Shown piece after piece: positions 3,738 to 63,784 of a DNA stretch of 64,000 bases. The first letter of the stretch is position 1; each line of letters begins with the position of its first letter. The position numbers and the translations under genes are program-made. Under the pieces are notes generated by a model, which saw only the letters and a list, made by a program, of their open reading frames with translations, was not told the origin of the DNA and made no database searches. Source of the DNA: a virus; the IMG/VR virus record IMGVR_UViG_3300045016_000140, positions 1 to 64,000 of that record, one strand, 5' to 3'.

Positions 3738-4189
3738 AAATAATAGTTGCCACTGGTATAATAGCTGGGAAGCCTACGGCAAATGGGAATATATATTCCC
3801 ATAAATTGCTTATGGATCTGATCTCGAAATATAATAGGACTAATAAATATTCACCCAAAAGCGGTAGTTTGATAAATAGGCAGCATATTCAGCAGGTTGG
3901 TGACATTACCCATACTTGTGGGAGGATATTTATGAATGAATCATCTATGTTGTGCGCTGAGATCAATATATCTGATACCCCTGCTGGTAAGGCAATATTG
4001 GATGCGATATCTTCCGGTAGCGAGGTAGTTGGTAGGCCGATTACGAGTCTTCCGGCGTCTGCCATGAGCCAGAAGACTGGCTCGGAGCCGTTCATAGTGC
4101 CACATATTGACAGAATTATTAGGGTACAGCTAGAAATCAAGGAAAATACCACGGGACTCAAAGAAAAGCCTCCGGAAAATACCACTTAA
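3734..4189 (+). CDS. Small protein, possibly S80 prohead-protease-like fold
   Basis: 151 aa, translationally coupled to the PurZ-like gene by an ATGA overlap. It has an NGNIYSHKLL segment, a central HTCGRIFMNESSMLCAEINI stretch and DTPAGKAILDAISSGSEV. This resembles the prohead protease pattern NGRxYP...G.V...A.I.DTPAGK. No complete catalytic triad could be assigned, the protein is shorter than known head proteases, and its neighbours are not head genes. It could be a degenerate or repurposed relative. The C-terminus is Lys/Glu/Pro/Thr-rich with a short ENTTGLKEKPPENTT repeat. Confidence 0.5.
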   Translation: MKIIVATGIIAGKPTANGNIYSHKLLMDLISKYNRTNKYSPKSGSLINRQHIQQVGDITHTCGRIFMNESSMLCAEINISDTPAGKAILDAISSGSEVVGRPITSLPASAMSQKTGSEPFIVPHIDRIIRVQLEIKENTTGLKEKPPENTT

Positions 4190-4203
4190 GTTAGAGAGTC
4201 AAA

Positions 4204-4395
4204 ATGCTAACTAAAGAAGAAGTTCTAAAGCTGAAACATGAGTGCGCTATGCGTATTCTTGCGGTATATATTAATCGTATTAGTGATAGATATGATGATA
4301 CATGTAGGAATATATATCATAGGTATGTGGTATCCGCTCTCGATGTGGCGGAATTATTTGTCCAGGAATGTATTGATAGGAGTAAAAATGAGTAG
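4204..4395 (+). CDS. Hypothetical small protein
   Basis: 63 aa, family not recognised. Mostly helical in appearance (LTKEEVLKLKHECAMRILAVYINRI), charged, no membrane segment or cysteine cluster. A purine-rich stretch (AGAGAGTCAAA) precedes the ATG. Its end overlaps the next gene (ATGAGTAG), suggesting the two are translated together. Confidence 0.6.
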   Translation: MLTKEEVLKLKHECAMRILAVYINRISDRYDDTCRNIYHRYVVSALDVAELFVQECIDRSKNE

Positions 4396-4756
4396 GAGAG
4401 CTAAACCATATATATTTATATATGATGGTAAGTTAATGGAAACATCATCTTTAGCTGAATTATATACTGGGTGCGATAAAGATGAATGGTTAGATATATG
4501 TCGTGAGACAATTGCTAGGTATTGTTTAATGGAGGCTATAGTGCGTTGTAATGATAATGAGGCAGATGACAATGACCGTAAAATTATGAAATCGTTAAAG
4601 CGTACGGTTTTGAGTTTGAAGAAGATAGATCCGATAACTGGTTCTAATTATGATATTAATGCAATCATAGCCAATAATATGAAAGTAATTATAGATAATA
4701 TGGCCATGGATGCACAGCTCAATGTGGTTAAATCAATCAAAGTATCTAGTATATAA
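4388..4756 (+). CDS. Hypothetical protein
   Basis: 122 aa from the ATG at 4388, not recognised. This start was chosen over an upstream in-frame ATG at 4238 because the longer version would lie mostly inside the preceding gene, and 4388 gives a short overlap. The protein begins MSRRAKPYIFIYDGK and continues with charged helices and a DNEADDNDRK acidic patch. Confidence 0.6.
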   Translation: MSRRAKPYIFIYDGKLMETSSLAELYTGCDKDEWLDICRETIARYCLMEAIVRCNDNEADDNDRKIMKSLKRTVLSLKKIDPITGSNYDINAIIANNMKVIIDNMAMDAQLNVVKSIKVSSI

Positions 4757-4832
4757 TCAAAGATCAAAAAGATCTTGAGGAAAACGGCAGCGTCTTTGTC
4801 GCACCAAAGGCATCTAAATCCTAATTATCTCT

Positions 4833-4846
4833 AGCAAATATATTAT
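4833..4846 (+). promoter_or_regulatory. Candidate late-type promoter motif
   Basis: AGCAAATATATTAT runs directly into the ATG at 4847. It is one of several near-identical motifs (compare 12963, 58622 and, on the minus strand, 8443). No Shine-Dalgarno lies between motif and start. Confidence 0.45.
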
Positions 4847-5035
4847 ATGAAATACATTAAAATACGTAAAATGCGGTCTGTTGACAAAGATGTTCTTGGC
4901 GATGTCACCAAGAGGACTACGCCTGACATTTATATTGGTGGTGGTAATGAGTATAAGCAAGCTGGCGTGGCTGGTGGGTTTAAATTAGTTAAGCCTCGCC
5001 AAGGGCACTCAATGAAGGCAAATTTGCGGAGTTGA
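4847..5035 (+). CDS. Hypothetical small protein
   Basis: 62 aa, not recognised; Gly/Lys/Arg-rich, with an IYIGGGNEYKQAGVAGGF segment. Support comes from the promoter-like motif immediately upstream. Against it, the last 47 bases overlap the 3' end of the convergent gene at 4989-5921, and no ribosome binding site is visible. Confidence 0.4.
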   Translation: MKYIKIRKMRSVDKDVLGDVTKRTTPDIYIGGGNEYKQAGVAGGFKLVKPRQGHSMKANLRS

Positions 5036-9557: not shown

Positions 9558-11328
9558 TTTGAAGTCAGTTAAGTTTAGAAATTTTCTATCGTATGGTGAT
9601 TATGATACTGAACTCGCTCTCGATAACGCTGGGCAATGCCTTATCATAGGGGAGGTGATTGATGGCCCAGGGGATGCCGCCGAGACGAGCAATGGGTCTG
9701 GGAAGTCGTCTATGTTTCAAGCCATATTATGGTGCTTGTTTGGCCGCACAATGCATGCTGATAGGCAGGCTGGCGATGATGTGGTTAACTGGTTCACCAA
9801 GAAAGATTGTATAGTTGAATTGGAATTTAAGAATGGCGACAAGCTTACGAGGACTAGGAAAGTTGATGGGCATAGCGATCTTCTGTTAATTAAAGATGGT
9901 CATGACGTGTCGCTCGGTACGAATACGATGCAGCAGAAAGTTCTGAATAAGGAGCTTGGTCTAGATTGGGACATATTCTGTGGTTCAGTATTCTTTTCCC
10001 AATTTGGTAAGCCATGGATGGAGATGTCTGATCAGAAGCGCAAGGAGGCGATGGAACGTGAATTTCATCTGGATAGGATTATGTTGTATGCTGACGTGGC
10101 TAAGGCTAAAAAGCAGAAAATAGAAAATGAGCATGTTTTGGCTAGGGGTCAAATTAATGCCAGCCAGATATCCATCGATGATTTGCAAAAGCAGATCGAT
10201 AAGCTACAAGTTCTATTTAATGGTTTCGAAAACAATAAGATTGAAAAGATAAATGCCGCCGTTGAGATATTAAATGGATTGAAATCCACGGGCATTAAGA
10301 TATACGACATTGATGCCTTGAAAACCAAATGGGATGTGGTTAAAAAGATAATGTCAATGGTGGAGTCTAAGCGCTCTGAATTGTATGCCATGAAGTTGAA
10401 AGTTGGCGAAGTTAATGGTAAAATTAATCATTTTACAGCGCTGATAAATGATTGGGTCAAGAAGGATGGCAAAATATGCCTGTCGTGTGGCCAGCAGATT
10501 AATAAACAATATGTTGAATCGAAAATCCAGAATCCGAAGGCCATGATTGATGCTTTAAACATTGAGCTTGCTAAGTATGAGAGTGACATGTCGGCCATTG
10601 AAAATTCAATAAGTGAGGTTGATAGGGCTCTCGATGGTAAAATTCCGTCGGTGACGTCAGAACAGGCGGAAAAGCATAACAAGGAATGCAATGCGAGACT
10701 CGAGCAGATTAAGAATCAGGAATCTGTTATCGCTAAGATTAAGGCCGAGGTGAATGAGTATGGGAAGCTAATAGATGAGTTAAACGTCAAATTATCTAGC
10801 AATCAGCAGAAGCATGCCCAGTTGCTTGATAGAATTCGTAAGTTGGACACCATATTAGAACACATTAATTACATTTATAGTGCATATAGCGATAGGCGTA
10901 AAATTAAGAGTTATATGCTCCAGGAGTATATTCCATATTTTAACGATAGGTTATCATATTATATGGATAGATTCGAGCTTGATTTGAGGATTGAGTTTAC
11001 GAATGCTTTGACTGCACAGTCTAATTTGTGGGGGTATAATTGGTTTAGTGGTGGTGAGCGCAAAAGGTTTGACGTCGCAATGATGTTTGCCATGTTTGAC
11101 GTTCATTCGGTTATGTATGGGCGGCAATGCAACATAATTGTTCTGGACGAGGTTGACGGGCACATAGACCCGCGCGCTTCTAAGCTATTTGCCAACATCA
11201 TAAGAGATGATTTTTCGGGTAAGGTTGATTCTGTGTTCGTGATTAGTCAGAGGCGTGACATGCGTGGAGCGTTTCCAGCCGAACTTAAGGTGCGTAGAGA
11301 TGGTCGACAGTCGCACATTGTTTACTGA
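9550..11328 (+). CDS. gp46-like recombination ATPase subunit (SbcC/Rad50 family)
   Basis: 592 aa. Walker A is SNGSGKSS (residues ~49-56). Long coiled-coil arms flank a zinc hook CLSCG near residue 314. The ABC signature FSGGERKRFD (~500) and Walker B IIVLDEVDGH (~530) follow. It starts at a GTG with a strong GGAGG site inside the end of the gp47-like gene, so translation is coupled. It supplies ATP-driven clamp function to the nuclease subunit. Confidence 0.93.
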   Translation: MFDLKSVKFRNFLSYGDYDTELALDNAGQCLIIGEVIDGPGDAAETSNGSGKSSMFQAILWCLFGRTMHADRQAGDDVVNWFTKKDCIVELEFKNGDKLTRTRKVDGHSDLLLIKDGHDVSLGTNTMQQKVLNKELGLDWDIFCGSVFFSQFGKPWMEMSDQKRKEAMEREFHLDRIMLYADVAKAKKQKIENEHVLARGQINASQISIDDLQKQIDKLQVLFNGFENNKIEKINAAVEILNGLKSTGIKIYDIDALKTKWDVVKKIMSMVESKRSELYAMKLKVGEVNGKINHFTALINDWVKKDGKICLSCGQQINKQYVESKIQNPKAMIDALNIELAKYESDMSAIENSISEVDRALDGKIPSVTSEQAEKHNKECNARLEQIKNQESVIAKIKAEVNEYGKLIDELNVKLSSNQQKHAQLLDRIRKLDTILEHINYIYSAYSDRRKIKSYMLQEYIPYFNDRLSYYMDRFELDLRIEFTNALTAQSNLWGYNWFSGGERKRFDVAMMFAMFDVHSVMYGRQCNIIVLDEVDGHIDPRASKLFANIIRDDFSGKVDSVFVISQRRDMRGAFPAELKVRRDGRQSHIVY

Positions 11329-12952
11329 TAAAATATCGCATGACGAAATCATGAAGTATTTTCCGATGCCCAAGCCGCGTCGAGGGCAGCTTGAATCCAT
11401 AAAATTTGCCATAGATGCGTTTAACGGCGGTAAGAAGTATGTGGTTCTGGAGATGCCGACGGGTAGCGGCAAGAGTGTAATTGGCATAACCATAGCTAAA
11501 TATTATCAGTCCGCGTATTATCTCACGGTTAATAAATATTTGCAGGATCAATTATCGGTTGAATTCGGCCATGGTGGGAAATATGGGCAGCATTTGGTTG
11601 ATCTGAAAGGCAGAAATGCTTATGAATGCACATATTATAGGTTGAATGCCAATCAGCAGAAAGATAAGGACAAGGCAGAGATCTGGCGTACGCAATATTA
11701 TAATTGTGCGGAAGGACTCTGCCGTAAACATGGTAAGTCAAAATATGAGTCGTGCATTAGCGAGTCATTATGCCCATATTTTGTGAAGGTTGATCAGGCT
11801 ATGCTTTCGCCCATTTGCTCCATGAATTTTGCCGCATTTCTGCATCAGATACATTTTACTGATAGGTTTGGCCAGCGGGAGTTGCTGATTATCGATGAAT
11901 GTCATGCAGCCGAGTCTCAGCTTATGAATTTCATTACTTTAACCATAACGGATTTGGAGCTTGGTGATTTGAAAATTCCGGAGTATGATGAGCCGGAAGA
12001 TTATGCTAAGTGGTTATGTGACAATTGTGTGATTGCCATATTGAGCAAGCGTGCGGCTGAAGCGACATCTAACCAAGACATAAAGCGTGTTGATTCATTA
12101 AATGCAACCATTAGCAAAATGAGATGGTTCATTAAAGAGATGAATGACAGCAACCATGATAAATGGGTGTGTGAGTGTGGCAAAATCACCGGGACTCAGT
12201 ATAATAAAGTGGTGTTTAAACCGGTGTATGTTAAACGCCAGGCTTTCGATTATTTATTGTCAATGGGTGCTAGGGTATTGATGATGTCGGCCACCGTGCT
12301 CAATGCTAAAGTATTGACTTCATCGCTTGGCATTGGACGCGAAGAGTATGCAGCCAAGAGATTGCCCAGTTATTTCCCGATTGATAATCGCCCAATATAT
12401 TATAGACCCGCCGCCAAGATAACTGGCGGGCAAGACAACCAAAATATTTGGGGACCTAAATTGATTTCGGCCGTTGATGACATACTCGAGACGCACAAAG
12501 ATGTGCGTGGCATCATACATACGCATAATTTTGCGATAGCTAGGCTAATATTAGCCAGTTCAAACTATAAGAATAGGCTATTATTCCAAGAGGATTTCAT
12601 CAATAAGTCCGCGATGGTTGATGAGCATAGACGCAGGACTAACTCGGTAATAATTGCTCCCGCGATGCATGAGGGTATATCTTTAGATGATGATCTGAGT
12701 AGATTTCAGATAGTGTGTAAGGTACCTTTCCCGAATTTCTATGAAGATAAACAATTGGCCGCCAGGAAGGAGCTTGACGGCCCATATTATAATTGGGTAG
12801 TGGCCTTGAAGCTCGTTCAATCTGTTGGGCGGAGCATTAGAAGCGACACTGATTGGGCTAAGACATATATTCTTGATGGATCGTTCATGTGGTGGTATAA
12901 GTACAATTCAGCCATATTGCCAGCTTGGTTCAAAGATGCCATTATATGGTGA
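11300..12952 (+). CDS. XPD/DinG-like superfamily 2 helicase
   Basis: 550 aa from the ATG at 11300; a longer form from 11255 is open but extends further into the gp46-like gene. Walker A is MPTGSGKS, motif II is DECH, and QSVGRSIRSDTDW is motif VI. Between motifs I and II is a set of cysteines (YECTYY, NCAEGLC, SCISESLC) placed as in XPD/DinG helicases, which bind a 4Fe-4S cluster there. A second pair (CECG) lies near residue 292. It probably acts in replication or recombination beside gp46/gp47. The overlap with the upstream gene suggests one operon from 8475. Confidence 0.85.
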   Translation: MVDSRTLFTDKISHDEIMKYFPMPKPRRGQLESIKFAIDAFNGGKKYVVLEMPTGSGKSVIGITIAKYYQSAYYLTVNKYLQDQLSVEFGHGGKYGQHLVDLKGRNAYECTYYRLNANQQKDKDKAEIWRTQYYNCAEGLCRKHGKSKYESCISESLCPYFVKVDQAMLSPICSMNFAAFLHQIHFTDRFGQRELLIIDECHAAESQLMNFITLTITDLELGDLKIPEYDEPEDYAKWLCDNCVIAILSKRAAEATSNQDIKRVDSLNATISKMRWFIKEMNDSNHDKWVCECGKITGTQYNKVVFKPVYVKRQAFDYLLSMGARVLMMSATVLNAKVLTSSLGIGREEYAAKRLPSYFPIDNRPIYYRPAAKITGGQDNQNIWGPKLISAVDDILETHKDVRGIIHTHNFAIARLILASSNYKNRLLFQEDFINKSAMVDEHRRRTNSVIIAPAMHEGISLDDDLSRFQIVCKVPFPNFYEDKQLAARKELDGPYYNWVVALKLVQSVGRSIRSDTDWAKTYILDGSFMWWYKYNSAILPAWFKDAIIW

Positions 12953-51184: not shown

Positions 51185-53110
51185 TTATCTAGGTGCTTTA
51201 ATGGTGTGTTTCCGGATTTTGGAGATGGGTATAGTTTGGTTTGAGGATATTAATTGTTTAGAGAACTTCGCTAATTCAGCTTCTACCGTTTCTTGTTTAT
51301 CCATTTGGAAATCCATGATGTTTGATGACAATGGCGGGAGAACATTCGGATCATTGCTTGAAATTGATAAGGCCTTTAGCTGTTCTTCTTTGGCCGGGCC
51401 AATATCGGCACTGATTCCCGGTAACATATTCATTGTTTTTGTGTTTGCCGGTATAAGCGCCATCGGGTCATTATCAGAGAAATCAGAGGCGGCCACGAAA
51501 GCCAGCCCGGCTGCTATTACGAGATCGTCGAAATTGCCCCTGCCTGGCTGTGCGCCAGTCTTATTGGTGTCATATCCAGTGGCAGTTCTTTGCCTAATAT
51601 ATAATTGTAATTGTTTCCATAGTCTATCGCTTCTAACTTTGTACCCGGCCTCTTCGTCTTCGGCTATATAAGTTATCAGTGCTTTGTTAATAGTTGGCTT
51701 TGACGCCTCGCTAGTATAGAAGCCAGTTTGTGCGCCGATTTTCTTTCGCCATAAATTCGGGTACATTAGGCTGTTTTCGATGTCTTGAATAACTCCTTCA
51801 CCGTAACTATTGCGTTCGACGCAGACGATGGCGTTGTTATAATATCTCCCGAGATAGTCAATTATATACGCTAACATTTTTAATTGTACTCTACCCATAT
51901 ATTCTGCCACTTGAGCCATTCCATCTATATCCCATATTGATATTGCCGAGTAATCGTTGTTCTTGCCGGTTGATACATCGACCCCTATTGTATATTTATG
52001 GCCTTTGTTGCCTCCCACCAATTTGCCATTCTGTAATTTTGGAGGTGTTCCTTTTATTGGTTCTTGCCATACCCATAATCCTTCGGTATCATCGATGCCT
52101 CGCATGTCTAATTCTATCTTATCGCCAGTTATTGGATGGTTATAAGTTATGGGTTGTGTTGAAGTTCTGGGGGTGTCTACCTCTTTGACGTGTTTACCAG
52201 CTGTCTTGATGGCTAGGGAGCTTAAGACCGTACCACCCGATCCTATGAATTCTCCCAATAGTTCTTGTTTGAATAGGTGGCTTTCACCTTTGGATGCTAG
52301 GGCTTTATATTCATTTTCTAGCCATGGCGACCAGTATGGCCCATATTTTTCTAGCTCTTCTTTTGCCATGCATTCTCGTATGTCATCTCTTGGGGCAATT
52401 CTAATTGTTTTCCCGGTCATTTTGTCTTTCCATGATAATATCCAATCCATATCCCACCAATTTATCTCTATTGGGCTAAATACTCCTAATCCTTCCTTGG
52501 CATTTACCCATTCCCCCCAATACCAGTTGCCAACGCCGCATGGTGTTGATATGACTATTACGCGCCCGCCGTGAGTTATTGTGCTCCAGCCGGATGCCCA
52601 TACGTGGTCCATGTCTGGGATGAATGCGGCTTCGTCTATTATATTAAGAGATGAGGCATTTGCTCTCAATGTGTTCTTGGAAGTTGTCAATGAACGTATT
52701 ATGGAGCCATTATTAAATCCAATTTCATGTTCATTTACTTTAGACAATTGCCATATATCGTGCATCCATGGCGGTAGGTAATCATATATAAACTTTATAT
52801 GCTTAGCCAGGAATTCCTTGGCGTCTAGGTCTCGCTTGGACATTATCAATATGGTCTTATCGCTGAACATCATCGCTGTCCATAGGGCATAAGCCCCGGA
52901 GAGAGTGCTAATCCCCAGCTGTCTACATTTTTTGAACAACACGAACCTATTCTGGGTGAACATGTCCAGAGAATGTTTCTGATAGCTGAATAGTTTAAAT
53001 GGCAATATCCCGGCATTTGAATGCTTAACCTTGCAGCATGACTGTATGAAATATGCCGGTGATTGCTTACATTTTGTTACAAATGCATATAGTTGTGTTT
53101 TGTCAATCAT
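51185..53110 (-). CDS. terL: Terminase large subunit (gp17-like)
   Basis: 641 aa. The ATPase domain has Walker A KKCRQLGIST (residues ~59-68), Walker B LNIIDEAAF (~155-163) and motif III VISTP. The RNase H-like nuclease domain begins at TIGVDVSTGKNNDYSAISIW (~374), followed by CVERNSYGEG and DDLVIAAGLA, giving the acidic triad. It packages DNA through the portal encoded at 58636. It lies on the minus strand, opposite to the portal, unlike T4. A GGAG site precedes the start. Confidence 0.95.
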   Translation of the reverse strand: MIDKTQLYAFVTKCKQSPAYFIQSCCKVKHSNAGILPFKLFSYQKHSLDMFTQNRFVLFKKCRQLGISTLSGAYALWTAMMFSDKTILIMSKRDLDAKEFLAKHIKFIYDYLPPWMHDIWQLSKVNEHEIGFNNGSIIRSLTTSKNTLRANASSLNIIDEAAFIPDMDHVWASGWSTITHGGRVIVISTPCGVGNWYWGEWVNAKEGLGVFSPIEINWWDMDWILSWKDKMTGKTIRIAPRDDIRECMAKEELEKYGPYWSPWLENEYKALASKGESHLFKQELLGEFIGSGGTVLSSLAIKTAGKHVKEVDTPRTSTQPITYNHPITGDKIELDMRGIDDTEGLWVWQEPIKGTPPKLQNGKLVGGNKGHKYTIGVDVSTGKNNDYSAISIWDIDGMAQVAEYMGRVQLKMLAYIIDYLGRYYNNAIVCVERNSYGEGVIQDIENSLMYPNLWRKKIGAQTGFYTSEASKPTINKALITYIAEDEEAGYKVRSDRLWKQLQLYIRQRTATGYDTNKTGAQPGRGNFDDLVIAAGLAFVAASDFSDNDPMALIPANTKTMNMLPGISADIGPAKEEQLKALSISSNDPNVLPPLSSNIMDFQMDKQETVEAELAKFSKQLISSNQTIPISKIRKHTIKAPR

Positions 53111-54784: not shown

Positions 54785-57343
54785 GTGGCTAATATTTTGC
54801 TTGAGAGAAAATTGTCGGTGCAGCCCGGAGACCTTATAGTTGTTCCCGGTCTCGAGCCAACGTCGGTATTAACATCTCCTGTTCTGGATCAACAATTAGC
54901 TTTGGCAGGATTGCAGGGAAAATGTACTGTGCCGTTGGCTATGGCGTTGCAGGCTGTGCCTGGTTCTAGGGTTGAATTCTTTGAAAATACTGGTAGGTTT
55001 AATAAATTCTTTGTGTTACCGCCGGTGGATTGTGCTGGCGGGCATAGTATTGATTGGTATGGAGTGTTAAGAGATGTCGCGGTGACCGGCGTACTACCGA
55101 TTTGGGAGAGTTCATCCTCATCCTATTCCAGTTCATTCTCGTCCTCCAGTTCGTCATTATCTTCCAATTCATCCTCGTTCTCGTCTAGTTCATCCTCCAG
55201 TTCATCATCTAGTTCATCCTTTAGCTCATCCTTATCTTCCAGTTCCTCGTCATCGAGCTCCAGTAGCAAATCAAGTAGTAGTAGCAGTTCTAGTTCCAAG
55301 TCTAGTAGCTCTAGTAGTTCTAGTAGCTCTAGTAGCTCTAGTAGCTCTAGTAGCTCTAGTAGCTCTAGTAGTTCTAGTAGTCGATCCAGTGCTTCTAGCT
55401 CCAGTTCTAGCAAATCAAGCTCTAGTTCTAGTAGCTCTAGTAGCTCTAGTAGTTCTAGTAGCTCTAGTAGCTCTAGTAGTCGATCTAGTGTTTCTAGCTC
55501 CAGTTCTAGCGGTTCTAGTGTTTCTAGCTCCAGTTCTAGCAAATCAAGCTCTAGTTCCAGTAGCTCTAGTAAATCTAGTAGTTCCAGTAGTTCCAGTAGT
55601 TCCAGTAAATCTAGTTCGAGTTCAAGCAGCTTGAGTTCTAGTAGCTCTAGTAGCTCTAGTATCTCTAGTAGCTCTAGTAAATCAAGCAGTTCTAGTAGTT
55701 CTAGTAAATCAAGTTCGAGTTCAAGCTCTAAATCGAGCAGTTCCAGTAGCTCTAGCAAATCTAGCAGTTCAAGCAGTTTGAGTTCCAGTAGCTCTAGTAA
55801 ATCAAGCAGTTCCAGTAGCTCTAGCAAATCTAGCAGTTCAAGCAGCTCGAGTGCATCCGGTGGAGGTGGATGGACTGACATTTCGCCGCCCGTAGGCGCT
55901 GTGGTCATCTATGTGTCGTCAAGCCTGGGCGATGATGGTGACACTGGTGGCATCGCCGATCCTGTGGCAACGATTGCTAAGGCGCTGACATTAGTCCGTG
56001 ATGGCTACCCGGACCAGATTCTATTGAAGTGTGGGGACACATGGTCTGAGACCCTGGAAGATTGGGACCTCAGCGGGCAGGATGCCACACACAGGTTCGT
56101 GGTGGCGACCTATGGATCAGGGGATAGGCCGATCTTGGAATGTGGGACCAATGCTGCCGTGACTCGTGGGGCTAATGTTCACGACGTGGCGTTTGTCGGC
56201 CTAGATTTCTATGCAGATACACGCGATCGCACGGTGCCGGGCTACAGCAATAATGGGGCCGACGGAGGCATCTATTGGCTTGGTAGCGCAACGAGGTTGT
56301 TGTTCGAGGACTGTGTAATCAGATGGTTCAAGGGCAACGCTATACAGGGCTACCCGACTACCTCCGATGTGGTCGCGGGCATCAGCTTCCGCCGTTGCAT
56401 GTTCCTGGACATGTGGTGTTCCGATGCCCACTCGCAGGGTTTGTACATGGGTTATCCCGGTGATGGGACTAGTGGCGGTCCAACGGACATCCTCATCGAG
56501 GAATGTCTATTTGATGGCTGTGGTTGGGCGTCCGACGCGTCGTTGCGATCGGCTTTCAATCATTCAATTTATTTAAACAATGCTTGCGGTCTTGACGACG
56601 CGATTGTCCGCAAGAATATTATCCTGCGTTCGTCTAGCCATGCCATGCAAGTCCGGGCCGGTGGAAGCACGACTGACAACTTATGTGTAAGCAATGCTAT
56701 CGGCATTCAAGTCGGAATTGGCGACGATCCTAATCCCGGAGGGGTTACGGGAACCATAACGGACAATGTGATCTTGGACGGGGAGGACATTGGTGCTACC
56801 CCGTTGGCATTTGGAATCGTCGGAGGCAACATCAGCACTCTATCTGCCACTGGCAATATCATCGCTCATGATCTATCCGCCGACCCTTACGGCCGGGGGT
56901 TTGATTTGGGCGATTCAATCGGTACAGTCTCAGATAACATAGTGTATGACTGGCGCAACCCAGTGCAGCACTACGGAGTCCCGGATGACATCGAGTACAG
57001 CAGCAATGAGTTCCAGGAAGTTGCCGCTGGCGAGGCTTTGGTATGGTTGGACAGCACCCAGGGCGGTGCGACGTTCGTTGGGAATAACTACTACTCGCCG
57101 TCGCTGCAGTGGTACGTCAACGGCAGTGTTCTAGATCAGAGCGATTGGGAGTTGATCGATACTACGGGGACGTTCGTGGAGCGTGCATATGTGAATCCGG
57201 ATATAAGTCTGGCTGATGTTTTGGGTGTGGCGGATACTGCTGCCGCTGCTGCGCTGTTGCGTTCACGTGGTCGGGGTGAATGGGATACGGATCAGACCGC
57301 TGTAGCGATTAATGCGGTGATCCGGGCTGGGTTCGTATATTGA
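54785..57343 (+). CDS. Poly-serine-linked beta-helix fibre or tail spike
   Basis: 852 aa, GTG start with AAGGTGA. Three parts: an N-terminal ~108-residue domain (QPGDLIVVPGLEPTSVL), probably for virion attachment; a ~250-residue segment that is nearly all serine with scattered Lys, Leu, Phe, Arg (residues ~110-358); and a C-terminal right-handed beta-helix domain (~359-800) of the pectate-lyase-like type (GGIYWLGSATRLLFEDCVIR, DILIEECLFDGCGW, VRKNIILRSSSHAMQVR). The C-terminal DNA is richer in G+C with different codon use, implying separate origin. Likely polysaccharide-binding or -degrading receptor protein. Confidence 0.75.
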   Translation: MANILLERKLSVQPGDLIVVPGLEPTSVLTSPVLDQQLALAGLQGKCTVPLAMALQAVPGSRVEFFENTGRFNKFFVLPPVDCAGGHSIDWYGVLRDVAVTGVLPIWESSSSSYSSSFSSSSSSLSSNSSSFSSSSSSSSSSSSSFSSSLSSSSSSSSSSSKSSSSSSSSSKSSSSSSSSSSSSSSSSSSSSSSSSSSSRSSASSSSSSKSSSSSSSSSSSSSSSSSSSSSSRSSVSSSSSSGSSVSSSSSSKSSSSSSSSSKSSSSSSSSSSSKSSSSSSSLSSSSSSSSSISSSSSKSSSSSSSSKSSSSSSSKSSSSSSSSKSSSSSSLSSSSSSKSSSSSSSSKSSSSSSSSASGGGGWTDISPPVGAVVIYVSSSLGDDGDTGGIADPVATIAKALTLVRDGYPDQILLKCGDTWSETLEDWDLSGQDATHRFVVATYGSGDRPILECGTNAAVTRGANVHDVAFVGLDFYADTRDRTVPGYSNNGADGGIYWLGSATRLLFEDCVIRWFKGNAIQGYPTTSDVVAGISFRRCMFLDMWCSDAHSQGLYMGYPGDGTSGGPTDILIEECLFDGCGWASDASLRSAFNHSIYLNNACGLDDAIVRKNIILRSSSHAMQVRAGGSTTDNLCVSNAIGIQVGIGDDPNPGGVTGTITDNVILDGEDIGATPLAFGIVGGNISTLSATGNIIAHDLSADPYGRGFDLGDSIGTVSDNIVYDWRNPVQHYGVPDDIEYSSNEFQEVAAGEALVWLDSTQGGATFVGNNYYSPSLQWYVNGSVLDQSDWELIDTTGTFVERAYVNPDISLADVLGVADTAAAAALLRSRGRGEWDTDQTAVAINAVIRAGFVY
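55108..55858 (+). repeat. Serine-codon satellite encoding poly-Ser linker
   Basis: About 750 bases of serine codons. The first ~150 bases favour TCATCC/TCGTCC and AGTTCA patterns; the rest is built on the hexamer/12-mer AGTAGCTCTAGT with interspersed AAA (Lys) and CGA (Arg) codons. The antisense frame is also open but reads as a Leu/Glu repeat and is an artefact. Confidence 0.9.
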
Positions 57344-58635: not shown

Positions 58636-60492
58636 ATGAGCTGGGCACTGTTTGATAGAATTCGTGCGTTCGCCAGGCAGGCTGGAGTATATCAGCAAGA
58701 GCGGTTACTGCAAGATCAGACGTCTCTTGAGAGAATGATTGCAAGCGGGCAGTTCTTAAATTTCTCTCAGCAACAATCGTTATTAGACCAGACGAATTTA
58801 CAGATCAATCGCCTAGAGCGGTATAAAGATTACGATCAGATGAGTGAAGTGGGTGAGATTGCTTTATGTCTCGATTTATATGCAGATGAGTCTTCGCTGG
58901 TTGATCCGGAATATAAGCATACAATCATAATCAAGGCAAAGTCTAGGATTATAAAGCGTGAGCTAGAGGATTTGTTCTTCGGCCGATTGCTTATAGACAA
59001 TAATATTCGGGCGATGGTCAGATATCTTTGTAAATACGGTGATGCCCCATTTGAGATTGTACCAAACCATAAGCGAACTGGTGTGGCTTCGCTGAAGTTT
59101 ATGAATGTTTATAACTTTACGCGCATAGAGACCAAGTTCGGCGATCTAGTGGGTTTCTTTTTCCAAGATGAGGTTATGACCGAGCCCACATTTTTACATC
59201 CATGGCAGACGATGCATATGCGGTTATTGAGTTATGAAGATATTTTTGCGCCATATGGAATGTCAATACTTGAAGGTGGCCGCAAGGCCTTTAAGCAGCT
59301 GAGGCTTATGGAAGATGCCGCATTAATTTATCGCATTACGCGCGCCCCGCAGAAGAGAGTGTTTACAATACCCATTGGCCTCATACCCACCAAAGAGGTC
59401 CCGGAGTATCTTCAGACCATTGCTCGTCAGTTTAAGAACATGAGGTTTTATGACCAGAGGACTGGCACCTTCAACGAGAGATTCTCACCATTGATTCAGG
59501 AGGATGATTACTTTTTACCGCAGCGTCCCGATGGTAGTGGTCCGAAGATTGATACATTGCCTGGCGCTGAGAACTTAGACCAGATTGCTGACATTGAATA
59601 TTTTAAGAAGAAGATGATTGCGCCAATGAAGATACCCTTCAATAGAGTTGGGATTGGCGAAGGTGGGGATGATAGCAAGTCGGTGGCCTCGCAAAATTCA
59701 GAATTTGCTAAGGCTGTACAATGGGTGCAGCGAGAGGTGGCGATGGGTTTGACTAAGGTTGCCATCTGCCATCTTGCCATGGCTGGGTTCACTGCCGAAC
59801 AGCTGAAAGAGTTTAGTGTTTTCATGACGGCCACGAATGCTATTGATGAATTATATAGGATGGAAACCTGGAATGGTCGGACTAGGGTTATGGCGGATTT
59901 AAAGGATTTGGGATGGTTCCCGCCAGAGTGGATTGTTAGTAGATTTACCGATCTTAGCCCCGACGAGATTCAGGAGTTAGAATTAGAAACTAAAGAAGGA
60001 GAAGGGGAAGAGGGAGAGGAGATGGGCAAGGGCATGCCGGGGCTTCCCCCAATAAGCGGGCTATTGGAGCCTGATAAAATGGATAAGGTCGAGGGTGATA
60101 AAGAGGGTGGGGATAATATGGATAATGAGGATGGTAAGGGTGGTGAGGGTGGTGGGGGTGATAAGAATGCGCCGAAGCTGGAGATCGCAGATAGTGTCAT
60201 ACCAGGGTATGATCATAATCTCGAGAAACGTGTGATTGTGGAGTCTAAAGGTCTAAATAAATCTGGCAAACTTAATCGCACTCGTGATGAAATATCAGAT
60301 AACATTCCGTATAAATATTTCAGCGTGAATAATGAGTTAGCTGGCTTGCCAATTGGTGAGGGTAAAGAAAGACCATCGTTAATCGACGAAAAAGTAGAAC
60401 AGGAAGTCAAGGAGGAATATAAGAGATTAATGATAAATGATGGAAATGAGGTAGTGGATGATACAATTACATCTAGCGATACTCCATCTTAA
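58636..60492 (+). CDS. Portal protein (gp20-like)
   Basis: 618 aa. RLERYKDYDQMSEVGEIALC (cut at 20), then LDLYADES, the VRYLCKYGDAPFEIVPN segment and IADIEYFKKKMIAPMKIPFN (residues ~318-337) with SVASQNSEFAKAVQWVQREV are diagnostic of T4-type portals. The C-terminal ~110 residues are acidic and Gly-rich (MDNEDGKGGEGGGGDKN). It forms the dodecameric vertex that docks terminase. Probably leaderless or with a very short leader, given the abutting promoter motif. Confidence 0.95.
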   Translation: MSWALFDRIRAFARQAGVYQQERLLQDQTSLERMIASGQFLNFSQQQSLLDQTNLQINRLERYKDYDQMSEVGEIALCLDLYADESSLVDPEYKHTIIIKAKSRIIKRELEDLFFGRLLIDNNIRAMVRYLCKYGDAPFEIVPNHKRTGVASLKFMNVYNFTRIETKFGDLVGFFFQDEVMTEPTFLHPWQTMHMRLLSYEDIFAPYGMSILEGGRKAFKQLRLMEDAALIYRITRAPQKRVFTIPIGLIPTKEVPEYLQTIARQFKNMRFYDQRTGTFNERFSPLIQEDDYFLPQRPDGSGPKIDTLPGAENLDQIADIEYFKKKMIAPMKIPFNRVGIGEGGDDSKSVASQNSEFAKAVQWVQREVAMGLTKVAICHLAMAGFTAEQLKEFSVFMTATNAIDELYRMETWNGRTRVMADLKDLGWFPPEWIVSRFTDLSPDEIQELELETKEGEGEEGEEMGKGMPGLPPISGLLEPDKMDKVEGDKEGGDNMDNEDGKGGEGGGGDKNAPKLEIADSVIPGYDHNLEKRVIVESKGLNKSGKLNRTRDEISDNIPYKYFSVNNELAGLPIGEGKERPSLIDEKVEQEVKEEYKRLMINDGNEVVDDTITSSDTPS

Positions 60493-60550: not shown

Positions 60551-63500
60551 ATGCGGAATCAAGGGAATGAAGGTCGTCCCGCCACATTTGGTTCTGTGGC
60601 CATGGACAGCCGGAAACTCTTGTCGCTGATTAATTCCTCAGCGCAGAGTCAAGTCAAAATCTTCGAAGAGGCCGTTCAGAAGCTTGGGCAAAGCCAGAAT
60701 GCCGATTGGCGTCTAGTTGCCCTACAGACGAATAAGGTCATATTCGAAGATGTTAAAACTAGTCAATATTACACCGCCGATCATATTCGTGAGAAAGGCG
60801 GTCGCATAAATATTACGAACATTAATAGTATTACCATTACTGACACTGAGAAGGCCCCCATATTTGAAGCAGTATGCCAGCAACTGGTTAATGCCATTGA
60901 AACTGGTGACCCATCACAGATTGAGAAAGTTTATGATAAGATGGCCGCCAACCGCTTTCGTGGCCAAGCGGTTCCGGCGAGTGGATATGTTAGGACTAAG
61001 GATGGGGTAGTGCGCAAAGTCCAGATTAATGAGGGTGTGGTACACCCCAACATATCTGAGCTCGCGCTTAGGATAGTCGAACACATCGTCGATAGAGTGA
61101 ATATCGCCGAAGGTAAGATTGAGGGTTCATTCAGGACTTCCGATATTAACCTGGATATTCCGGAGCTTCTGGTTCGCCGGGCCATAGCCGGAAATATGCG
61201 TAAAGTAGCCCAGAATGCATATATTAATGAGAATTTCCAGAAAATTATTAAGGGTATAGCAGGGTATATTTCGGCTGATAAGCTTGAGAAGGCAGTGGAG
61301 TGCGCAACTGGATTATTGACTGAATCGCAAGAATTCTGCCTGCTTGATCGCGGCCAGATTGGGACATTAATTGGGGATACCTTGGCTGCATGTGGGGTGT
61401 TTAATGAAGCGCTTGCTAATGATGTGGCTACTCTCGTATACAAGACGAATTTGAAAGTCAATCATGCTCTAATCATAGAGGCCTGGAAAAAGACTGCACA
61501 GAAGGCCGCTAATTCGATTATGCTGGAGAATGTCGCAATCCTGGAGGAGTCAAAAGATTTCGAATCTGATTATGACGAGTTCCTCGATGCCATATTTGAG
61601 GGTGCCGAAGATAATCGCAGGCAAGCCGCTTTGAATGGATTGAAGAATTTGCAGAATGAGGTCGCTGACGATCCAAAACTTGCCGAGGAAGTTAACCTTC
61701 TGATTCAAAAACTTGGTGGTAAGAACTCTGATAGTAACGACTTGATGGAAGCCGAGGATTTGTTATCGAAGGTTGCGGCAGATGTTAATACATCCAATAC
61801 GCTGAACGAGTTTGACCAGATGCCTGGTTCTGAGGCTGCGCAAGAGCCGGTTGTTCCGGCTGCTCCATCTCCGGCGGCTCCGGCTTCGATTAGTACCGGT
61901 GCTCCGGGCGGCAGTGTGACCAATATTACTATTAACACTGCTGCTGGCGCTGGCACGGCTGCCGCTCCAGTTGCTCCAGTTGCTCCAGTTGCTCCACCCG
62001 CTCCAGCTGCCCCACCCGCTCCAGTCCTTCCACCCCCTCCTGGAGGTGAGGAGGAGCCGCTTGACCTTGACAAATTATTGAGTGGCGAGGAAGAGTCTGA
62101 GGAAGGCGAGAAAGAGGAAGGCGAGAAAGAAGGGGAAAAGAAAGAGGAGATTCCAGAGTCTAAGGAAAAGATTGGTGAGCCGATGACCGAGGACGTCGAG
62201 AAAGCTCGAGCTTTCTTTGATGCCATCGGCATTGACAAAGATGGATCATTTACGTTTAAAGGTGAGCCAGTCGTAGCTGGATCAATCACTGAAGCCGAAG
62301 ATGATGAACGGGTTGATTCGTCTGAATACCATATTCCAGAGGGATTGGAAGAGTTAGATATTAATCACGAATATGGGCCAGTTTCGGAAGCATCCGTATC
62401 GCCTCAGCAGGTTGCGAGTGCCGCCAAAAACATGAAACAGATAGCTGGCAAATTTGGACGGCGCAATAAACCAACTTTAGCTGATGCCACATTAGCTGCT
62501 AGTGAAGAAATTGAGAAAATCGCCGGGCATGAGACACCTGAACAGAAATCTGCCAAGAAAGACGAGATTATTTCTCAAATTGCTAAAGCCGACGCGGGCA
62601 TCAAGGAAGATCAGCGGAAGACAATCTTTCATCGTAAGATGCGCGGTTTGAAGCGTTCATCGATTTTGGCGCTTTTGAAAGAGGGTAAGTTCAGCTGGCT
62701 CGGCAAATCAGGTGATGGTGTTCTTGGTGAGTTCAAGGGCGTTAGGTTTGTGTTCGATCATGCCGAGCCAGCTGTTTTACTAAGCGAAGACGGCAGCATT
62801 GAGCTAGATATCCCTGCCGAATTAGTTGATGGCGCAAAATATTTCTCTGAAATCTCGGATGATGAAGCCGAAGCTGACGGATTTATTGAATGGCTAGATA
62901 AGAATGTTACGCAATTAGCTCCGATATCCAATGATGAGGCAAAAGCAATCGATGAAGCTGTTGCTGAGTTGACGGTGAATCCTGGTGACGAGGTGCGGAT
63001 CAAAGTTGGGTCAGGTGATGAAACAGCTAGCGTGAAGCCAGTGGTTGAACCTGTAGCTGGGACAGGGTTGGATGCATCACCAAAGCCACCGCCTCCGCCC
63101 GCCACCCCAGCTGAGCAAGAGCCAGCGATAGTTGATGCCAGCCCGCTGCCTGATGATGAAGTTAGTGCGGCCGATATGCCAGCATCTGAACCTGGTGAGA
63201 TAGATCGAGATATCCCGCCTTGGGAGGGTAGTGAGGCTGCCGAGGCCGAGGAGACCGAGGAGGCCGGAGAGGAAGCGGCTGAGGAAGAGGAAGCTGCCGA
63301 GGCCGAGGAGGAAGAGGCCGAGGAGGGAGAAGCCGAGGAGGAAGCTGCTGAGGCCGAGGAGGAGGAGGCTGCCGAGGCTGAGGAGGAAGCTGCCGAGGCT
63401 GAGGAGGAGGCTACCGAGAAAGAGGTAGAGGAATCCAAGGCTGAAGAAATCAAACCGATTATTGAAAAAGAAGAGAAATGCGTGGATATTTGCAAGATCT

Positions 63501-63784
63501 GCGATTGTGACCCATGCAAATGTTGCAAGAAATGCGAATGCCATCCATGCAAATGCTGTGGGAAATGCAAATGTTATCCGTGTGAATGTCCGCAAGAGGG
63601 CAAACTTCCGGCAGCTTTAAAGAAGTACCAATTCAAGAAGGGCAAGGTTGGGAGCGCAGCTGAGAAACCAGCTGAGAAACCAGCTGAGAAACCAGCTGAG
63701 AAACCAACTGAGAAACCAGCTGAGAAACCAGCCAAGAAACCAGCTGGGAAACCAGCCAAGAAACCAGCTGAGAAACCAGCCTAG
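60551..63784 (+). CDS. Large head-region protein with Cys-rich repeat and Lys-Pro-Ala tail
   Basis: 1077 aa, not recognised. Residues ~1-420 are helical (SAQSQVKIFEEAVQKLGQSQ). Then come a Pro/Ala linker (~430-495), acidic Glu/Lys runs, a folded-looking region (~530-800), a second Pro region, and a long Glu/Ala acidic stretch (~895-960). Residues 981-1013 are three copies of CxxCxCxPCxC, and the last ~35 residues repeat AEKP/AKKP. Position directly after the portal corresponds to T4 prohead core/protease genes, so an internal head or scaffold protein is likely. Charge segregation (acidic middle, basic tail) would suit packing near DNA. Confidence 0.7.
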   Translation: MRNQGNEGRPATFGSVAMDSRKLLSLINSSAQSQVKIFEEAVQKLGQSQNADWRLVALQTNKVIFEDVKTSQYYTADHIREKGGRINITNINSITITDTEKAPIFEAVCQQLVNAIETGDPSQIEKVYDKMAANRFRGQAVPASGYVRTKDGVVRKVQINEGVVHPNISELALRIVEHIVDRVNIAEGKIEGSFRTSDINLDIPELLVRRAIAGNMRKVAQNAYINENFQKIIKGIAGYISADKLEKAVECATGLLTESQEFCLLDRGQIGTLIGDTLAACGVFNEALANDVATLVYKTNLKVNHALIIEAWKKTAQKAANSIMLENVAILEESKDFESDYDEFLDAIFEGAEDNRRQAALNGLKNLQNEVADDPKLAEEVNLLIQKLGGKNSDSNDLMEAEDLLSKVAADVNTSNTLNEFDQMPGSEAAQEPVVPAAPSPAAPASISTGAPGGSVTNITINTAAGAGTAAAPVAPVAPVAPPAPAAPPAPVLPPPPGGEEEPLDLDKLLSGEEESEEGEKEEGEKEGEKKEEIPESKEKIGEPMTEDVEKARAFFDAIGIDKDGSFTFKGEPVVAGSITEAEDDERVDSSEYHIPEGLEELDINHEYGPVSEASVSPQQVASAAKNMKQIAGKFGRRNKPTLADATLAASEEIEKIAGHETPEQKSAKKDEIISQIAKADAGIKEDQRKTIFHRKMRGLKRSSILALLKEGKFSWLGKSGDGVLGEFKGVRFVFDHAEPAVLLSEDGSIELDIPAELVDGAKYFSEISDDEAEADGFIEWLDKNVTQLAPISNDEAKAIDEAVAELTVNPGDEVRIKVGSGDETASVKPVVEPVAGTGLDASPKPPPPPATPAEQEPAIVDASPLPDDEVSAADMPASEPGEIDRDIPPWEGSEAAEAEETEEAGEEAAEEEEAAEAEEEEAEEGEAEEEAAEAEEEEAAEAEEEAAEAEEEATEKEVEESKAEEIKPIIEKEEKCVDICKICDCDPCKCCKKCECHPCKCCGKCKCYPCECPQEGKLPAALKKYQFKKGKVGSAAEKPAEKPAEKPAEKPTEKPAEKPAKKPAGKPAKKPAEKPA
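63491..63589 (+). repeat. Triple 33-bp repeat encoding CxxCxCxPCxC
   Basis: Three consecutive 11-codon units: CKICDCDPCKC, CKKCECHPCKC and CGKCKCYPCEC. Every cysteine and the proline are in register. With one Cys upstream this gives 16 cysteines in 37 residues, a metallothionein-like or disulphide-rich density. Confidence 0.95.
63657..63781 (+). repeat. 12-bp tandem repeat (GCTGAGAAACCA unit)
   Basis: About ten copies encoding Ala-Glu-Lys-Pro or Ala-Lys-Lys-Pro at the extreme C-terminus of the head-region protein. The first copies are identical; later ones vary at one or two bases. Confidence 0.9.

Follow-up and report, generated by a model that had tools for sequence, protein, structure and literature searches.

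The DNA analysed here, which we call the window, is a stretch of 64,000 nucleotides corresponding to positions 1 to 64,000 of a 74,669-base IMG/VR virus record (IMGVR_UViG_3300045016_000140). Toward its end lies an ORF for a protein of 1077 residues whose C-terminal part carries a tandem array of cysteine-rich units (Table 1). The product of the gene immediately upstream matches Portal_T4 (PF07230, E = 5e-66), in agreement with the initial annotation, which had placed the array gene beside the portal. Downstream, and on past the end of the window, follow an ASCH-domain ORF, a Peptidase_S77 prohead protease of the T4 gp21 type (E = 9.5e-26), a coiled-coil scaffold-like protein and a Gp23 major capsid protein (E = 6e-76). 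The order Portal_T4, Peptidase_S77, Gp23 around the array gene is that of a T4-like head cluster and supports the location of the protein in the head region. The ASCH-domain ORF, which separates the array gene from the prohead protease (positions 3869-4927 of locus L002, 63869-64927 of the record), occupies this junction in this genome only and is without a counterpart in related loci, where the order is portal, array-gene family, protease, scaffold and major capsid protein. In T4, the head genes are arranged as 20-(67, 68)-21-22-23. Because the order of the neighbours equals that of T4, with the array gene between portal and prohead protease, we assigned the gene to the place of gp67/gp68. 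The T4 core is made of gp22, gp67, gp68 and gp21 together with internal proteins (PMC9958956, PMC9026906), and gp21 cleaves after L/I-x-E (PMC9026906). A conserved L-x-E is found ahead of the mature start in the capsid protein of the window phage.

Table 1. Position of the array, its carrier gene and selected neighbours in the window
Feature	Position	Strand	Remarks
Terminase large subunit	51185..53110	-	
T4-type portal (gp20) gene	58636..60492	+	directly upstream of array gene
ORF of 1077-residue putative prohead-core protein	60551..63784	+	T4 gp67/gp68 position
Conserved N-terminal domain	60551..61828	+	residues 1-426; defines family
Second conserved domain, alpha/beta	62597..63043	+	residues ~683-831
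Acidic Glu/Ala stretch	63230..63478	+	residues 894-975; net charge -41; directly 5' of array
I-I-E972, last L/I-x-E (T4 gp21-type) candidate cleavage site	63458..63466	+	motif: PMC9026906
C977-V-D-I leader	63479..63490	+	sixteenth Cys; just 5' of unit 1
Three tandem C-x2-C-x-C-x-P-C-x-C units	63491..63589	+	residues 981-1013
Unit 1	63491-63523	+	CKICDCDPCKC
Unit 2	63524-63556	+	CKKCECHPCKC
Unit 3	63557-63589	+	CGKCKCYPCEC
LPAALKKYQFKK element	63605..63640	+	directly 3' of array
Basic Lys-Pro-Ala repeat tail and stop	63641..63784	+	net charge +10

Other genes of the locus were noted as well. A phage peptide deformylase (PHROG 2890, PF01327; 57471-57902, minus strand) lies between the portal region and an ORF of 852 residues (54785-57343). 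The latter possesses a poly-Ser linker of more than 200 residues, interrupted by K, R, A or L each 6-12 residues and followed by an apparent beta-helix domain; it is a putative tail fibre or spike and gave no PHROG or Pfam match. Gp23-type capsid genes of the window's phage group were also found in two MAGs labelled Candidatus Lokiarchaeota (L146, L147), which are probably mis-binned phage contigs.

The array is built of 11-residue units joined head to tail. Direct reading confirmed the three exact CxxCxCxPCxC units at the annotated coordinates and the count of 16 cysteines within 37 residues (977-1013); the remaining 1040 residues hold 4 cysteines only. When the 1077-residue protein was shuffled 20,000 times, the unit was never recovered, and the densest 37-residue stretch contained 7 cysteines. 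At the DNA level, the three units are 64-79% identical. The six fixed positions of the unit (five Cys and one Pro) display synonymous codon changes at five and amino-acid changes at none, and the amino acid differs among the units at all five free positions. This synonymous drift, together with the limited DNA identity, indicates that the cysteines and the proline have been kept by selection rather than by recent DNA duplication, and that the array is old relative to codon drift. Random low complexity and a slippage repeat were ruled out by the shuffles and the codon pattern.

AF2 predicted the N-terminal domain of the carrier protein with a mean pLDDT of 87 and the core of domain 2 with confidence. 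A Foldseek comparison of both domains with solved and viral structures returned no match at E < 0.001, and in a second structure comparison the best Z values (5.4 and 4.3) were at background. The flanks of the array are, as annotated earlier, an acidic Glu/Ala stretch and a Lys-Pro-Ala tail, and their net charges are consistent with this description. Four residues ahead of the first cysteine stands IIE972, a candidate for a gp21-type cut that may be a chance occurrence given the 29 L/I-x-E tripeptides in the protein. The LPAALKKYQFKK element is common to array-less relatives, in which it reads LPPALEKHKFK, LPAHLEKHKFK or CPEHLKAHQFKK. Because the array directly precedes an element kept in relatives, it looks inserted ahead of a conserved tail.

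A tblastn search of 50,697 phage records with the 1077-residue protein gave no match, a search for related loci with the full protein gave none, and the protein had no Pfam match and no significant PHROG match. The family was reached via the portal instead. Nearly all of the 80 loci found in this way possess a family protein directly after the portal, and residues 1-426 and 683-831 are conserved across this portal-derived family. Further scans brought the set to 91 family proteins and 79 scaffolds, from 219 loci. The family, which the N-terminal domain defines, thus counts some 90 proteins from uncultured phages. Within its clade (n = 7, support 99), the window protein is alone in having the array, and the scaffold protein of two other members (L003 and L004) carries a CPK-C-x-C-K-P-C-E-C unit between coiled coil and tail. 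Among distant family members, L063 has two units in its C-terminal part, one of them at the extreme C-terminus, and L065 has a unit in the C-terminal part of the core protein. A variant without the third cysteine occurs in L041, L050, L056, L061, L069 and L211, and other distant members carry ordinary zinc ribbons. A Cys cluster is absent from 53 of the 78 complete family members, and one clade of 45 has none. The initial annotation had held that its reading would be refuted if close relatives lacked the cysteines or showed the region to be a random low-complexity expansion. The former applies to the core proteins of the closest relatives; the latter does not, since the scaffolds of L003 and L004 and more distant core proteins carry the unit or a near variant. 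Cumulatively, these distributions indicate that: 1) the array is a gained-and-lost module and not random low complexity, as the unit is present in scaffolds of relatives and in distant core proteins; and 2) about two thirds of the family can do without the module, which is not essential to fold or assembly generally, as most complete members are without a Cys cluster.

Further cysteine-rich or acidic sequences were encountered in the family. A core-protein homologue (L144, also L061) contains three tandem zinc-ribbon copies in residues 505-573 (CPKCGAMMEGDMCECGY), and this triplet appears, from its sequence, to be a second kind of metal-module amplification in the core-protein family. A close relative (L085) encodes another acidic protein upstream of the head genes (670-1917) with CAIPGCPHECACKQCCCCESHCEC; its DPHAAALGRK repeat is present too in the core-protein tails of L076 and L152.

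We surveyed 1,574 distinct genes of these loci (91 core, 79 scaffold and 1,404 others) for cysteine motifs. The spacing C-x2-C-x4-C-x-C was confined to 9 core and 2 scaffold proteins, with no occurrence among the 1,404 others; some Cys cluster was present in 27 of the core and 11 of the scaffold proteins. Cys clusters in the core protein were not significantly associated with Cys clusters in the scaffold (Fisher p = 0.09). An unrooted quick tree required at least six state changes for the C-x2-C-x4-C-x-C type and at least six for any Cys cluster.

IMG/VR was scanned by a degenerate DNA search for CxxC[KE]CxPC[KE]C, a pattern that constrains what is found. It returned 61 stretches, compared with 1 for a reversed-motif control. 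The unit was in frame within an ORF in 51 of them, and these carriers formed 18 protein groups without BLAST relation, many beside head genes. Of the 29 distinct units, 22 have Asp at position 7, which the pattern left free. In L277, from a different T4-like phage, a 203-residue carrier lies between Portal_T4 and Peptidase_S77, followed by Gp23. Elsewhere the carrier adjoins Peptidase_S77 (L251), is a head-maturation-protease protein directly after the portal (L268), or lies beside the major head protein (L234) or the terminase (L223). The carrier in L269 is related to a virion structural protein of Paride that is without the unit, and it shares with the window an EGKLPxALKxYQFxKK element after the unit. 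Carriers were also found upstream of TerL and portal (L227 group), near an endolysin (L224) and after a tail-fibre protein (L236/L244); several of these non-family carriers are not core proteins or are without known context. A Gly-Lys form of the unit, CxxCGKxPCxC, was commoner than the third-Cys form, with at least 120 stretches. Among the matches listed, it was in frame in 105 of 107 loci, and its carriers fell into 28 groups without links between them, of which one is large and was put together by single linkage; one carrier is a head-maturation protease (L333). The 11-residue CxxC[GK/EC]xPCEC unit is frequent in phage proteins and missing from both Pfam and NCBIfam. The earlier statement that it matches no known family stands as far as Pfam and NCBIfam are concerned, but the unit is not unique, since it recurs in phage head proteins; an oddity of one phage was ruled out by the family members and the IMG/VR carriers. 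A two-unit DNA pattern matched IMG/VR twice in all, and both matches were rejected: one (L083) is not in a Cys-rich reading frame, and the other (L084) lies in a prophage-type tail protein of 917 residues (9669-12422) whose very long Cys array (CDCCDCEPCECCDCCDCEPCDCC...) is unrelated.

These distributions bear on whether the array could be a mobile, nearly neutral low-complexity insertion without a function of its own. Its absence from the closest relatives, its patchiness on the tree and its low-complexity flanks would all be expected of such an insertion. However, the codons have drifted synonymously while Cys and Pro stayed fixed, the motif is strongly favoured over its reverse in IMG/VR, and among the surveyed genes it is confined to core and scaffold. 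We therefore regard a neutral insertion as highly improbable.

In an alignment of both forms (A5), Cys 1, 4, 9 and 11 are invariant and Pro 8 is nearly so, and all five residues are present in each window unit. As the Gly-Lys form replaces the third cysteine, the obligatory set is four cysteines, which corresponds to a tetrathiolate site of zinc type. Four thiolates so spaced, in a reducing cytoplasm, provide what a Zn(II) knuckle requires. From the four obligatory cysteines and their zinc-type spacing, we infer that the unit is very probably a metal-binding (zinc) knuckle, in support of the metal binding proposed earlier. The cysteines could instead form a redox device, with disulphides that arise after release from the cell, lock the tail or the head interior, and are reduced on entry. 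Such a device would fit the high cysteine density and the oxidising conditions that capsids face outside the cell, but the strict spacing, invariant proline and four-Cys core are as in metal knuckles, and both the building of the core and most of its clearance take place in the reducing cytoplasm. Cross-linking by disulphides and redox sensing are less likely than metal binding, and we consider a redox device distinctly unlikely.

If the unit is a metal knuckle, the array would consist of three small autonomous knuckles fused together, in which Cys 1, 4, 9 and 11 and Pro 8 are obligatory and Cys 6 is optional, and each of which would, in the reducing cytoplasm of the host, fold around Zn(II) or a comparable thiophilic ion. 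Five cysteines per unit plus C977 may then form a shared metallothionein-like cluster; the presence of the fifth cysteine in all three units and their direct fusion make bridging thiolates and a multi-metal cluster possible. The array would be a graft in the C-terminal tail, flexible and charged, of a prohead-core protein, ahead of the LPxxLxxHxFKK element, and the metal would give this otherwise disordered tail a fold or a staple, within or between chains, during core assembly. A metal-dependent fold or staple is proposed because the unit has been inserted into flexible, charged tails of the proteins from which the prohead core is assembled, and its recurrence in head proteins of unrelated phages suggests a plug-in metal staple. 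The role of the array in assembly is less certain than metal binding; that fused metal knuckles serve as a metal-dependent fold or staple in the prohead core is, in our estimate, slightly better than an even bet. As most relatives do without the module, it would tune assembly and not enable it. At maturation, the gp21-type protease would probably release the array or destroy it along with the core; with IIE972 so close to the first cysteine, the protease could separate the array and the basic tail from the body.

We ask whether the knuckle might act by docking, that is, by binding protein or nucleic acid such as the portal, the protease or DNA. The unit recurs in charged linkers of head and packaging proteins, and several unrelated carriers share adjacent short elements, such as LPxALKxYQFxKK in the window and L269, which speaks for docking. 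Between the cysteines, however, the window units differ so widely (K/K/G, I/K/K, D/E/K, D/H/Y and K/K/E) that no common contact surface is visible, and docking seems to us rather unlikely. A metallothionein role was considered too, in which a metal buffer or cargo is packaged in the head and delivered with the DNA, supplying Zn or soaking up Cu, Cd or Hg. The cysteine density and the tripling of the unit exceed what a structural knuckle has, and internal head proteins of T4 are packaged and injected (PMC9958956). Against this, most carriers have a single unit, too little for buffering, the array is absent from most relatives, and T4 gp22, gp67 and gp68 are degraded to peptides that mostly exit the prohead (PMC9958956, PMC9026906). 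We rate this role as unlikely, and retain the fold or staple in the core as the preferred reading.

A broader proposal is put forward tentatively: C-x2-C-[x-C or G-K]-x-P-C-x-C might be an uncatalogued, phage-wide zinc mini-domain that has been grafted repeatedly into linkers of core, scaffold and head-protease proteins, making assembly or core clearance zinc-dependent in many phages, and that the window phage amplified into a metallothionein-like cluster. A metal-dependent staple, if true, would be a simple, testable answer for many uncultured T4-like phages. Should the unit bind zinc, the assembly of phage heads would become sensitive to zinc limitation, and a common short motif would become annotatable in many unnamed phage proteins, for which a profile of the 11-residue unit would serve.

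We compared the protein and its unit with known families and systems. In gene order, acidic charged tail and candidate L/I-x-E sites, the window protein resembles T4 gp67/gp68 and the scaffold gp22. It differs from gp67/gp68 in its length of 1077 residues, its two conserved domains and its Cys array, and no PHROG or Pfam family was detectably related to it in sequence. A Pfam search with the 59-residue array segment returned no family at E up to 10, and neither unit form nor the Cys regions of the carriers gave a Pfam or NCBIfam match above cut-off. No solved structure of the unit was found by phmmer or by a 30-unit profile, short profiles being insensitive. The open-access literature contained nothing relevant on phage metallothioneins or on zinc in proheads; the Ab31 paper mentions a metallothionein, but this gene is bacterial.

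Profile searches gave no match for the array, and its placement in a metallothionein family was rejected on that ground. With bacterial metallothioneins (SmtA/BmtA, PF02069), the array would share thiolate metal clusters, which are predicted for it, and SmtA contains a CxCxPCxC stretch. The array differs from PF02069 in lacking a profile match, in having H998 as its sole possible His ligand and in not being a small free protein. The GATA-type finger that SmtA is described as having (PMC10612145) is likewise not apparent in it. The tail of L063 reached 8.5 bits against the plant family PF01439 (E = 5), where the cut-off is 23 bits. The C-terminal part of plant type 1/2 metallothioneins ends in a CxCxPCxC-like sequence; the window array differs from these proteins in lacking both a match to PF01439 and a plan of two domains separated by a long spacer.

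Zinc ribbons and CCHC knuckles are, like the predicted unit, small four-ligand Zn sites in linkers, and family members carry ribbons similarly placed. The unit, with 11 residues and the spacing C-x2-C-x4-C-x-C, differs from both the two-knuckle ribbon and CX2CX4HX4C: the window units read C-x2-C-x-C-x-P-C-x-C and do not have the CCHC pattern, and none of the Pfam zinc ribbons matched the unit above cut-off. In the Rad50 zinc hook, a CxxC on each of two chains shares a Zn that staples two proteins. This is a comparison of working principle only, as the motif differs from the window unit. None of the libraries and open-access papers searched describes the motif, its recurrent presence in core and scaffold proteins, or the triple array. 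A small cysteine metal site is of a known kind; in the profile comparisons above the unit fell into no family, and it would work like a zinc knuckle, tripled like a metallothionein.
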